Positions 20,321 to 24,816 of a stretch of DNA of 64,000 bases are shown here, one piece after another. The stretch comes from Desulfurococcaceae archaeon (lineage in GTDB: Archaea > Thermoproteota > Thermoprotei_A > Sulfolobales > Desulfurococcaceae), in contig JAGDWI010000001.1 of NCBI GenBank assembly GCA_023269825.1, forward strand, positions 616,492 through 680,491. Reading direction: 5' to 3'. The translations under genes and the position numbers were made by a program. Below the pieces are notes generated by a model. That model searched no databases. It saw only the letters and a program-made list of their open reading frames with translations, and was not told the origin of the DNA. The stretch's first letter is position 1, and each line of letters begins with the position of its first letter.

Positions 20321-20443
20321 ATGGGTTTATACATAGTATTCCTCAAGGTGCATGATGTCGATGCATTCAAGATTACTCAGAATATTCTCATTGATTCAAG
20401 TACCAGGTTACTTAGTGATTCTTTGGAGGTGTTCGAGGATTGA
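20321..20443 (+). CDS. Possible 40-residue leader gene of the pilus operon
   Basis: An open frame from ATG 20321 encodes 40 residues, with the body DVDAFKITQNILIDSSTRLL and an acidic end. Its stop TGA overlaps the TTG start of the secretion ATPase (TTGA), as in other coupled genes of this window. Against it: TATA-like sequence (TATTTATATG) overlaps the proposed ATG, so the transcript might begin downstream; GTG 20348 is then the alternative start. It has no recognised relatives that I can name. Either a small co-translated protein or a translated leader. Confidence 0.35.
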   Translation: MGLYIVFLKVHDVDAFKITQNILIDSSTRLLSDSLEVFED

Positions 20444-22083
20444 GTAAAGAATCCAGGAAGCCCAGTTTATTCAGTAGGCTCTTCAGGAAAAGCAAGAAGA
20501 CTGTTCAAGAAGAAGCTGAAGCAAGCGTCGAGGTGACACTCGAGGATTTCAAAACTGCTCTAGCAGCTCGTAAAGAGGGTAGATTCACTCATAGACTATA
20601 CAGTATGAACCCTGGTTACACTATTATTGAAAGCTACCCTGTTTACGAACCATTCGCATACATTAACATCGTTGAAGACCCTAATGGTAAACTATACTAC
20701 GAGGTCCAGGAGATCTCGCTTACACCCGACGAGGAGAGAATTTACAGGGATATAAGAGAGCACTTGGTTTGGGAGCTGAAGCCTATTACGAGTTTAGATG
20801 TAGATGTAGCTAATGAGATAAGGAAAACCGCTAGGAGGATAATCAGGGAGTTCCAAATAAGGTTCACTAGGACACCTGGTTTATCCTGGAGTAAAATAAT
20901 GTACTATGTTGAGAGAGATGTTATAGGCTTCGGCATAATTGACCCTATCTTCAGGGACAGATTCATTGAGGATATATCTTGCAATGGGCCACGTAAGCCA
21001 GTCTACGTTTGGCACAGGAGATATGAGTCCATGCCCTCTAACATAGAGTTCCCTACTGAGGAGGATTTAGACGAGTATATTTTGAAGCTAGCACACATGG
21101 CTGGTAAACACATATCTGTTGCATACCCTATACTAGACACTATTCTACCCGGTGGCCACAGGCTCGCAGCGACATTCAAGAAGGAGGTTTCAACTTCTGG
21201 TTCAACTTTCACTATCAGAAAGTTCAGTGAGTCACCTATAACAATAGTGGACATGATACTGTTTAAGACTATATCCCCGGATATTGCAGCGTACTTCTGG
21301 TTGGCAATGGATTACAAGATGACAACATTAATACTTGGAGTAACTGGTGCAGGTAAAACAACTACATTAAACGCTTTAGCAACACTGCTGAGGCCAACAT
21401 ACAAGATCGTCACTATTGAGGATACACCCGAGGTTAGATTACCTCACGATAACTGGGTTCAACTGGTTTCAAGGCCATCATACGTTGGCAGCGGCGTTGG
21501 TGAAATATCATTATTCCACCTTGTTAAAATGGCTTTAAGGTATAGACCAGACGTGATAATAGTCGGCGAGGTTAGAGGAGAGGAAGCATACGTGTTGTTC
21601 CAGGCTATAGCTACTGGTCACAGCGGTATGACTACTCTCCACGCTGAGAACATTGATGCAGCTGTTAAAAGACTAACATCGCCTCCAATGAACATACCTC
21701 CATCATATATACCATTAGTTAACATAGCGATGGTTATTCGGAGAGTACACGTGAGAGATGAGAAGGGCAGGTTGAGGCCTGCTAGGAGAATAACTAATGT
21801 CTGGGAGATCAGGGGCCACGAGGACTACGTTGAAATAGCTGAGTGGAATCCTCTTGAAGACGTGTTCACAATTGACTTAAACAAAAGCATTGTACTAGAT
21901 AAGATAAGTGAGTTAACTGGTTTAACGAAGGATCACTTGATTAAGGAAGTTGAGAGACGTAAGAGAGTGCTTGAGTGGCTTGCATCCAAGAAGTTGAGTG
22001 ACTATAAGTCAGTGGCTTTAAACGTTTACTCATACTACCTTGACCCCGAGGGCATGATGAGGAAGATTGAGGGATTAGCGTAA
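20440..22083 (+). CDS. Type IV pilus/secretion ATPase (PilB/TadA/FlaI family)
   Basis: Hexameric motor ATPase that drives pilin assembly from the cytoplasmic face. The 547-residue product has a charged N-terminal about 100 residues, an N-domain with FIEDISCNGP, Walker A GVTGAGKT at about 300-307, an Asp box (IVTIEDTPEVRLPH), Walker B VIIVGEVRGEE and a His box (ATGHSGMTTLHAE), all intact. TTG start with a GGAGGTG site at 20425-20431. It overlaps the next gene start by one base. The lack of fla/arl accessory genes next to it favours a pilus (Aap/Ups type) over an archaellum. Confidence 0.93.
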   Translation: MSKESRKPSLFSRLFRKSKKTVQEEAEASVEVTLEDFKTALAARKEGRFTHRLYSMNPGYTIIESYPVYEPFAYINIVEDPNGKLYYEVQEISLTPDEERIYRDIREHLVWELKPITSLDVDVANEIRKTARRIIREFQIRFTRTPGLSWSKIMYYVERDVIGFGIIDPIFRDRFIEDISCNGPRKPVYVWHRRYESMPSNIEFPTEEDLDEYILKLAHMAGKHISVAYPILDTILPGGHRLAATFKKEVSTSGSTFTIRKFSESPITIVDMILFKTISPDIAAYFWLAMDYKMTTLILGVTGAGKTTTLNALATLLRPTYKIVTIEDTPEVRLPHDNWVQLVSRPSYVGSGVGEISLFHLVKMALRYRPDVIIVGEVRGEEAYVLFQAIATGHSGMTTLHAENIDAAVKRLTSPPMNIPPSYIPLVNIAMVIRRVHVRDEKGRLRPARRITNVWEIRGHEDYVEIAEWNPLEDVFTIDLNKSIVLDKISELTGLTKDHLIKEVERRKRVLEWLASKKLSDYKSVALNVYSYYLDPEGMMRKIEGLA

Positions 22084-23900
22084 TGCCTGTTTTCCCGAGG
22101 AGAAAAAAGAAGGAGGATAAACCAGTTGAATCGAAACCATTGAAACCAGCACCTAGGATAACCACTAGAGATGCATTCACAGCTTTCTCTCTCGCTTTAT
22201 TCGAGCCGCTTGGCAGAAGGTTCGCTAGAGCATTCGAGCTCGACAGAGTCTTCGCGAGAGCTGGTTTAAACATTCACCCAGTTAAATACGGTGCAGAAAC
22301 AATAGCTATGACTATGATAGCAGCATTGTTCACTGTAGTCGGGTTCATTGTTTTCAAACTTGTTTTCCCAATAGGCCTCGTTGAAACAGTGATAGGCTTA
22401 GTCATAGTTATAGTTATACCCGTACTAGTTTTCACGCTCAGGCTCTCATACCCTTACGCAGTAGCATCAGCTAGGAGAGTTGAAACAGAGAACGAGTTGC
22501 CTTTCTTCATGGCTTACGTTGCAACAATGATTAGAGGCGGTTATAGCCTCGAGAAAGTCATGGAGAGAGTTTCACAGTTAAAAGTATTCAGAGCAATTAG
22601 AAGTGAAGCAAGGAGAGTTATAACGAGAATAAAGATGCTTGGAGACGACCCCATAACAGCACTCGAACACGTTGCAACAGGTCACCCTAGCACTAAGTTC
22701 AGAGATATAATGCTTGGTTACACGACGACTCTTAGAAGCGGTGGAGACGTAACACACTACCTTGAAATCAGGACAAGGGAGATATTTGAAGCGAGAACAG
22801 TTGAAGTAAAGAACATTATTGGTAGGTTAATGTCCTTCCTCGAAGTATACACGATATTCGGTGTAATAGTTTCAATAACTTTGTTCGTTTTCTTCGCAGT
22901 TAACGCGGCGATCTCCGCTGCGGAGGCAACTAGGAGTCCTGGGGGACCTACATCTATAAGCATTGATGTCGCTTTCCCAGCAATATATAATTTCCTTGTC
23001 CTACCACTACTTGGATTCACAATAGCTCTAGCCATTCACTTCAATCAACCTAGAACACCCGTTGGTTACAGTGAAGCATACTTGACTCTTGTAACCTGGC
23101 TACCTGTCTCAGTAGCTGTTTTCCTAATTGTCTTAATTGCTACTGGTGGATTAAACATACTGTATGGTTCAATGGAGTTAAAGGAGGTTAAATCACTCAT
23201 ATATGCTTCATCAGCAGGGCTCATAGCTGCTTCAATACCACCAGCTCTCAAGTATCGTTCACTAGTTAAGAAGGAGAAGGGTTTAATTAAGGCAGCAGCT
23301 GATTTCCTGAGAGATGTTAGTGAAGTTAGGAAAACTGGTTTAAGCCCTGAGAGATGCATTATACTTGTTTCAAGCAGGAATTATAGGGCTTTAACACCTG
23401 TTGTTGAGAGAGCTGCTTCAGCTCTATCTCTTGGTTTAAGCCTCGAGGAGTCTCTTAGGAAAGCCTTGAAGGGCGTGAAGGAGTGGTTTGTGATCGCCGC
23501 TTTCAGGTTTCTAACTGATTCAATAATCGTTGGTGGTGGTTCACCGGAGGTAGTTGACACGTTGGCTAGGTTCACTCAGGTTCTAAGTGAACTCGAGGAG
23601 GAGACTAGGAAGAGAATGAGGACACAGGTAATACTACCATACATGGGCGCTATTCTACTAGCATCAATGCCGGTTATAATACTTTACATGTTGCTCGCAT
23701 TAGCCAAGATACCTATATCCGCTGTGACCCCGATGGTTCTAGTGCTAGCGCTGGGGAGCCTTGTTAACTCCTACATCATGGGGATCATTGCTGGCAAAGC
23801 ATCACAGACAACTATTGCTGCCGGGTTCAAGCACGCAATAATATTAACAGCTGTGACAGTTGCAACACTAGCAGCTACATTCATTTACATAGGTGCATAG
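22083..23900 (+). CDS. Pilus membrane platform protein with two T2SSF domains (TadC/FlaJ family)
   Basis: Inner platform on which the ATPase acts. At 605 residues it carries two T2SSF/TadC cytoplasmic domains, the first around FMAYVATMIRGGYSLEKVM and the second around FLRDVSEVRKTGLSPERC, each followed by hydrophobic helices; about nine membrane segments in all, with a basic N-terminus (PRRKKKEDK). Such duplicated forms are usual in crenarchaeal pili. The ATG overlaps the ATPase stop, and its own stop overlaps the next pilin-like frame. Confidence 0.92.
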   Translation: MPVFPRRKKKEDKPVESKPLKPAPRITTRDAFTAFSLALFEPLGRRFARAFELDRVFARAGLNIHPVKYGAETIAMTMIAALFTVVGFIVFKLVFPIGLVETVIGLVIVIVIPVLVFTLRLSYPYAVASARRVETENELPFFMAYVATMIRGGYSLEKVMERVSQLKVFRAIRSEARRVITRIKMLGDDPITALEHVATGHPSTKFRDIMLGYTTTLRSGGDVTHYLEIRTREIFEARTVEVKNIIGRLMSFLEVYTIFGVIVSITLFVFFAVNAAISAAEATRSPGGPTSISIDVAFPAIYNFLVLPLLGFTIALAIHFNQPRTPVGYSEAYLTLVTWLPVSVAVFLIVLIATGGLNILYGSMELKEVKSLIYASSAGLIAASIPPALKYRSLVKKEKGLIKAAADFLRDVSEVRKTGLSPERCIILVSSRNYRALTPVVERAASALSLGLSLEESLRKALKGVKEWFVIAAFRFLTDSIIVGGGSPEVVDTLARFTQVLSELEEETRKRMRTQVILPYMGAILLASMPVIILYMLLALAKIPISAVTPMVLVLALGSLVNSYIMGIIAGKASQTTIAAGFKHAIILTAVTVATLAATFIYIGA

Positions 23901-24295
23901 CTACGCACAGGTACTTCGCAGTAATAATACTAGTAGCCGTAACAATAACTATTGGAGTAGCAGCTGTAGCCTGGATTATTGCTAATCAAAACATTAACAC
24001 GTACGTTGAAGCACTGAGAGTAAGATACGCGAGCATATACTACAATGAATCAGATAACTCGTGGCGGCTTAAATTCACGGTTTTCAACGAGGGCTCTAAA
24101 CCAGTTGAAATCACGTGGGTTGAAGTAAAGGAGTCAGAGTTACTGAAAATGGACCCACCTAGAGTGATTCAACCAGGTGAAGAAATAGAGGTAAGCGTTA
24201 AACTCGCGAAGACATATATTAGGGGTGCAGCGTACAGCGTGGTAGTACGCACTGAGACAGGTGCACTCTACCAAGTGATCACTAATGCAAGCTAA
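23897..24295 (+). CDS. Pilin-like protein with no canonical start codon
   Basis: An uninterrupted frame of about 132 codons has the form of an archaeal pilin: a short polar start (THRYF), one hydrophobic helix (AVIILVAVTITIGVAAVAWI), then a beta-rich domain ending VVVRTETGALYQVI. No ATG, GTG or TTG exists in frame before the helix; the frame is open back to 23768 without one. Candidates are ATA 23897 (overlapping the preceding TAG) or ACG 23903, which stands seven bases after AGGTG at 23891-23895, the spacing seen for other genes here. A one-base sequencing error joining GTG 23893 to this frame is another explanation. Confidence 0.65.
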   Translation: MATHRYFAVIILVAVTITIGVAAVAWIIANQNINTYVEALRVRYASIYYNESDNSWRLKFTVFNEGSKPVEITWVEVKESELLKMDPPRVIQPGEEIEVSVKLAKTYIRGAAYSVVVRTETGALYQVITNAS

Positions 24296-24414: not shown

Positions 24415-24816
24415 ATGAAGAACAAGTTGAAGGGAATAGAGCCAATAATAGCAGTAGTAATCCTAGTAGCAGTAACACTAGTAATAGCGATAGCAGTAGT
24501 AGGATGGATAATGGGGTGGTGGAGCGCAGTAGGGAAACCACCAGAAAGCCTCAAAATAACTCCCGTAAAATTAAACAACAATACGTTGGAGCTATACGTG
24601 TGCAATGATGGTAGCGCGGCTGTAACTATTAAGGGGATAAGTATAACGGGGGTAGGAATTATAGAAGATAATCTTGGTAAACAAATAAACCCTGGAGTGT
24701 GTGATAAAATCACAGCTCCAACAAGCAGTGTTAGTGTTGCACCTGGTGTAGTGTACGAAGTTCAAGTTACAACTGCTGCCGGCAATGTGTATAAGACTGT
24801 GATTAGAGCTGAGTAG
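24415..24816 (+). CDS. Archaeal type IV pilin (class III signal peptide)
   Basis: Probable structural pilin. It begins with a basic stretch and the PibD-type cleavage site KLKG before IEPIIAVVILVAVTLVIAIA, giving a short leader of about seven residues and the hydrophobic N-terminal helix that packs in the filament core. The remaining about 100 residues form a beta-rich head with two cysteines (YVCNDG, PGVCDK) that could form a disulfide. It has its own promoter and a good ribosome site. A further sign is its position after the ATPase and platform genes. Confidence 0.9.
   Translation: MKNKLKGIEPIIAVVILVAVTLVIAIAVVGWIMGWWSAVGKPPESLKITPVKLNNNTLELYVCNDGSAAVTIKGISITGVGIIEDNLGKQINPGVCDKITAPTSSVSVAPGVVYEVQVTTAAGNVYKTVIRAE

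Follow-up and report, generated by a model that had tools for sequence, protein, structure and literature searches.

The window analysed, a stretch of 64,000 nucleotides corresponding to positions 616492-680491 of contig C2 of an archaeal genome of 1.50 Mb (G000), raises the question of how a pilin-like gene is translated that offers none of the usual start codons (Table 1). The only ATG, GTG, or TTG codons in the open frame were found at 24149, 24164, 24239, and 24275, all well 3' of the predicted membrane helix (residues 2-35 counted from ACG 23903), the first of them being codon 128 of the frame. When computed with the codon usage of G000, the probability of 127 codons without ATG, GTG, or TTG was approximately 0.003. 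A previous reading of this DNA, made from its letters only (further referred to as the sequence-only reading), had already remarked on this absence and had considered ATA 23897 and ACG 23903 as possible starts, with a one-base error that moves GTG 23893 into frame as the main rival. Upon re-reading of the letters, the absence stood and the coordinates of ATA, ACG, GTG, and AGGTG were correct. The comparisons with related genomes presented here indicate that the gene almost certainly begins at ACG 23903.

Table 1. Features of the locus, in window positions, and of the genes compared with it elsewhere, in contig coordinates or by locus
Feature	Position	Strand	Remarks
Secretion ATPase, TadA/PilB type	20440-22083	+	First gene of the operon; Pfam T2SSE 1.1e-34, PilB3_C 1.9e-6
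Membrane platform protein, TadC/PilC type	22083-23900	+	Pfam T2SSF 9e-21; ends ...TFIYIGA*, TAG 23898-23900
Open frame	23768-24295	+	Stop to stop, 175 codons
Shine-Dalgarno motif AGGTG	23891-23895	+	Within the 3' end of tadC, 7 nt before ACG; contains the out-of-frame GTG 23893
ATA codon	23897-23899	+	1 nt from the Shine-Dalgarno motif GGTG
ACG, predicted start codon	23903-23905	+	Differs from ATG by a single base, C at 23904; start column of the orthologues
Pilin-like membrane protein, 130 aa	23903-24295	+	N-terminal helix and seven-strand beta domain (AlphaFold2, Foldseek)
Next gene, pilin	24415-24816	+	Ordinary ATG; KGIEP-type N-terminus; Pfam Pilin_N 0.0022, below cut-off
pheT, phenylalanyl-tRNA synthetase beta gene	L177 (G000), L178 (G007)		Essential; apparent ACG start
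FAD oxidoreductase (sarcosine-oxidase-alpha-like by eye)	G000 C2 28383-29879; G005 C2 163319-164836	-	TCG in the start column
Examples of candidate near-cognate starts, G000			ACG: pheT, 104-aa conserved protein, pilin-like protein; CTG: FecCD permease, ThiS-type protein, CinA-like protein
Examples of candidate near-cognate starts, G005			CTG: TatD-type nuclease, flavin reductase, RidA-type protein; ACG: coiled-coil protein

The frame can be regarded as a gene, since it aligned over its full length to proteins encoded directly 3' of tadC, both in congeners and outside the genus (29-42% identity), in agreement with the sequence-only reading, which had placed a pilin-like gene directly after the platform gene. 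Every intact orthologue starts with the residue that precedes the motif [HNE]R[LFY]FA, and ACG 23903 is located exactly in this column. This column holds a canonical codon in eight relatives, namely TTG (L002), GTG (L003/L024, L005/L025, and L026), or ATG (L027, L034, L006, and L028), the orthologue of L006 having NT instead of NR after its ATG. The orthologue of L028 (6801-7200) opens with ATG AAT AGA and its frame is broken soon after, pointing either to decay of the gene or to a frameshift in the MAG sequence. Furthermore, the GGT of the GGTG motif was invariant in the alignment of the tadC-pilin junctions. In 645 conserved canonical start pairs shared by G000 and its congener G005, the spacing between GGTG and the start codon peaked at 6-7 nt, so that the 7 nt in front of ACG 23903 represent a usual spacing, as had been supposed. 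The ATA codon is situated too close to the GGTG motif, namely 1 nt after it, and outside the start column of the orthologues, and was therefore rejected as a start. GTG 23893 was discarded as well, being out of frame and part of the conserved Shine-Dalgarno motif. Similarly, a fusion of the pilin-like protein to TadC through a -1 frameshift was rejected, as no slippery site was seen and the orthologues carry their own start. The ACG lies 2 nt after the tadC stop (CT spacer). A search of genome contigs retrieved 13 related tadC loci; a separate search for tadC in G007, G003, G002, and G001 gave no match. The ACG of the pilin-like gene was seen in G000 only; the sequence of its nearest relative, G007, ends at a contig edge there.

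Concerning the nature of the encoded protein, the genes harbouring T2SSE and T2SSF domains adjoin the pilin-like gene, and this gene order is the same in the relatives. An AlphaFold2 model, built from six sequences (mean pLDDT of 81.7), displayed a long N-terminal helix followed by a seven-strand beta domain, hence the N-terminal hydrophobic helix and beta domain by which archaeal type IV pilins are recognized. The best matches of this model in the PDB were archaeal type IV pili (8fk7, 6w8u, 8q30, and 6nav; Foldseek E-values of 2e-5 to 3e-4), archaellum FlaG/FlaF ranking lower. No Pfam pilin or archaellin model scored above its cut-off for this protein (Arch_flagellin, 14.8 bits versus a cut-off of 29.5). 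A class III signal peptide, with [K/R]G before the helix, was absent from the protein (THRYFAV) and from its closest orthologues (M[NEH]R[LF]FA), and it is therefore called pilin-like, perhaps representing an uncleaved, membrane-anchored subunit. The neighbouring pilin at 24415 possesses a signal peptide of the [K/R]G type (MKNKLKGIEP).

Genome-wide, the whole of G000 was compared with most of the genome of G005 (about 1.3 Mb) by means of 1011 non-overlapping reciprocal best hits, whereby a start column was tested if one partner had a canonical start close to where the homology begins and its counterpart lacked any canonical codon within 14 codons. ACG or CTG occupied 10 of the 30 columns thus defined, compared with 14 of the 534 neighbouring columns (Fisher p=4.4e-8). 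All threonine in the start columns was encoded by ACG (4/4), a codon that accounts for 17-35% of the Thr codons, and leucine by CTG in six of nine cases; the start columns conserve the codon rather than the amino acid. Further, 21 genes lacking a canonical start carried a motif of 5 nt or more at a spacing of 5-8 nt; the codon placed by the motif was CTG in seven of them and ACG in four, and in one further gene ACG was the codon immediately before the placed one. The strength of support differs among the genes with a near-cognate start (Table 1), the ThiS-type gene having no clear Shine-Dalgarno motif. A conserved upstream stop was found close by in 9 of 17 near-cognate starts and in 29% of the canonical ones (p=0.055), making a coupling to upstream stops only suggestive as a common cause. 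A kinase-like gene of G000 (g0_6206; C2 398767-399765, minus strand; homoserine kinase by eye) had no canonical start near its conserved N-terminus, the first canonical start of its equivalent in G005 (g5_6019) being located 24 codons upstream of the conserved N-terminus.

Among these genes, pheT is the strongest case. Its start column, examined in 30 family genomes, holds ACG in G000, G007, and G003, each time with GGTG upstream, and ATG, GTG, or TTG in the other 27. An in-frame stop precedes the ACG by 4 codons in both G000 and G007, and canonical starts are lacking downstream of it up to codon 26 in G000 and within 60 codons in G007; the case of G003 is less clear, because an in-frame GTG is found 4 codons upstream. 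PheT residue 2, directly after the ACG, matches position 2 of TIGR00471 (pheT_arch), the ACG thus being model position 1. Because ATG, GTG, and TTG are the only starts that gene finders recognize, apart from CTG or ATT in some programs, genes starting at ACG are truncated or overlooked, a fate that the pheT genes of G000 and G007 have likely met with the standard programs. A similar situation was encountered for a conserved protein of 104 amino acids. The start column of its gene is occupied by ACG in G000 and G007, the two proteins being 95% identical, and by ATG in G005, G004, G006, and G001; an in-frame GTG is present 4 codons upstream in G007. Hence, for both pheT and the 104-aa protein, more than one species retains the non-canonical codon, that of the pilin-like gene being readable in G000 only. 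The suggestion of the sequence-only reading that such a start may serve to keep the minor pilin low found no support, and the occurrence of ACG on the essential pheT argues against a pilin-specific purpose. The arrangement of GGTG, 7 nt, and ACG was also seen in an EndA-type tRNA-intron lyase gene of G000 (g0_10259; C3 127464-128057, minus strand), as well as in G003, G005, and G007; as an overlapping upstream gene could conserve the DNA there, this gene was kept out of the main argument.

A different codon was found in the start column of the FAD oxidoreductase gene, for which no canonical start was present near the N-terminus in G000 or G005. GGTG, 7 nt, TCG, and CC are common to six congeners (G000, G003, G004, G005, G006, and G007), TCG representing 8-15% of the Ser codons; G003 is not decisive, because an in-frame TTG occurs two codons upstream. 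UCG has two mismatches to a CAU anticodon and is one C-to-U change away from UUG; either a UCG start or editing to UUG is possible. Of all the observations, this conserved column is the hardest to reconcile with near-cognate pairing.

Taken together, it is probable that the pilin-like gene is intact and is translated from ACG 23903 through Shine-Dalgarno-guided near-cognate initiation, as one case of what looks like a wider habit. The AGGTG motif would position the ribosomes at the ACG, re-initiation after tadC, with its stop 2 nt away, perhaps helping, and initiator Met-tRNA would pair with ACG as a near-cognate of AUG, tolerating one mismatch, so that the protein would begin with methionine. 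The decoding mechanism, this N-terminal methionine, and the yield are what we infer. The shared anatomy of GGTG, about 7 nt, and ACG or CTG fits initiation of this kind, and the somewhat higher frequency of near-cognate starts near an upstream stop suggests that re-initiation may help. ACG and CTG starts on a few conserved genes, including the essential pheT, look like a habit of this Desulfurococcaceae-related genus. Several observations were counted against the ACG start. Compared with that of four congeners or near relatives, the pilin junction carries an additional base, so one change besides that of the start codon is needed. Also, the conserved UCG column does not fit single-mismatch pairing. 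Finally, aIF1, a factor reported to help Sulfolobus discriminate against starts that are not canonical (PMC6237735; also PMC8211752), is present in all eight genomes, and its loss was hence rejected as a cause of near-cognate starts. As to a changed initiator tRNA, another conceivable cause, no clear initiator tRNA was found in G000 with ARAGORN and two pattern searches. When applied to the whole genome of G000, ARAGORN returned several odd tRNA calls, probably reflecting introns.

Alternatively, C-to-U editing of the mRNA could create canonical starts, turning ACG into AUG, and CUG and UCG into UUG. Each of the codons involved, namely ACG, CTG, and the TCG common to six congeners in one gene, is indeed one such change away from AUG or UUG, and chloroplasts make AUG from ACG in this way (PMC9845219). 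However, the GCG starts that editing predicts were not seen, despite GTG accounting for about a fifth of the starts, an absence that weighs little given the few cases. Moreover, we know of no C-to-U editing of start codons in archaeal mRNA, and eukaryote-type initiation, too, typically uses ACG and CTG as its near-cognate starts. Editing is therefore unlikely; if it were true, the start signals of this archaeal genus would be written only in RNA.

An error of sequencing or assembly, which as a one-base indel shifting GTG 23893 into frame was the main rival for the sequence-only reading and could also consist in an ATG miscalled from T to C, is now very unlikely. It would agree with the ACG of the pilin-like gene coming from a single genome, with the start lying 1 nt after the tadC stop in L002, L024, L025, and L026 versus 2 nt here, and with the upstream GTG being in frame with the pilin in L002, L003, and L005. 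Against this, GGTG is the conserved Shine-Dalgarno motif of the relatives, and its frame and distance to the start vary among them. Indeed, the same GGTGCATAG occurs in L027 and L028, followed by 3 nt and an ATG, so that the GTG is not the start there. In addition, the near-cognate pattern extends beyond the pilin-like gene and leaves a one-base error unsupported: two independent assemblies show ACG and CTG again in genes unrelated to it (p=4e-8), codons that random errors would not favour, and the ACG of pheT is common to three species. Least probable is a gene losing its start, through a fresh mutation or as a pseudogene in the sequenced cell, since, despite the single genome and the canonical starts of the relatives, no stop interrupts the frame, its invariant residues and the motif are preserved, and other conserved genes, the essential pheT among them, share this state between species.

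ACG is absent from the start codons of table 11. Likewise, AUG, GUG, and UUG are the only starts named in a review on initiation in archaea (PMC7531240). The literature searched, consisting mostly of papers outside subscription journals, yielded no mention of naturally occurring ACG starts in archaea, and a claim of novelty is limited by this coverage. A lineage with ACG and CTG starts on conserved and essential genes would make testable how strict the eukaryote-like start selection of archaea (aIF1, aIF2, and Met-tRNAi) is when the Shine-Dalgarno motif fixes the position. Among the known systems, the GTG and TTG starts of bacteria and archaea, and the rare ATT and CTG ones, share the Shine-Dalgarno architecture and the start column with the present case, whereas ACG mismatches at the middle base. 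Eukaryotic near-cognate initiation resembles it in the use of ACG and CUG starts by initiator Met-tRNA, as in mammalian cells and the Sendai virus P/C gene (according to titles cited in PMC9845219), but here chromosomal genes of an archaeon, placement by a Shine-Dalgarno motif, and an ACG that is apparently the only start of the gene are involved. The ACG starts of chloroplasts that are edited to AUG (rpl2, psbL, and ndhD; PMC9845219) likewise have a genomic ACG at the start column, in contrast with the archaeal genes, for which editing is neither shown nor known and CTG starts are about as frequent. Lastly, the pilin-like protein shares with archaeal type IV pilins and the archaellum stator proteins FlaF and FlaG both the combination of a helix with a beta-sandwich and a gene beside T2SSE and T2SSF, although it differs from them, together with its closest orthologues, in lacking the [K/R]G class III signal peptide.
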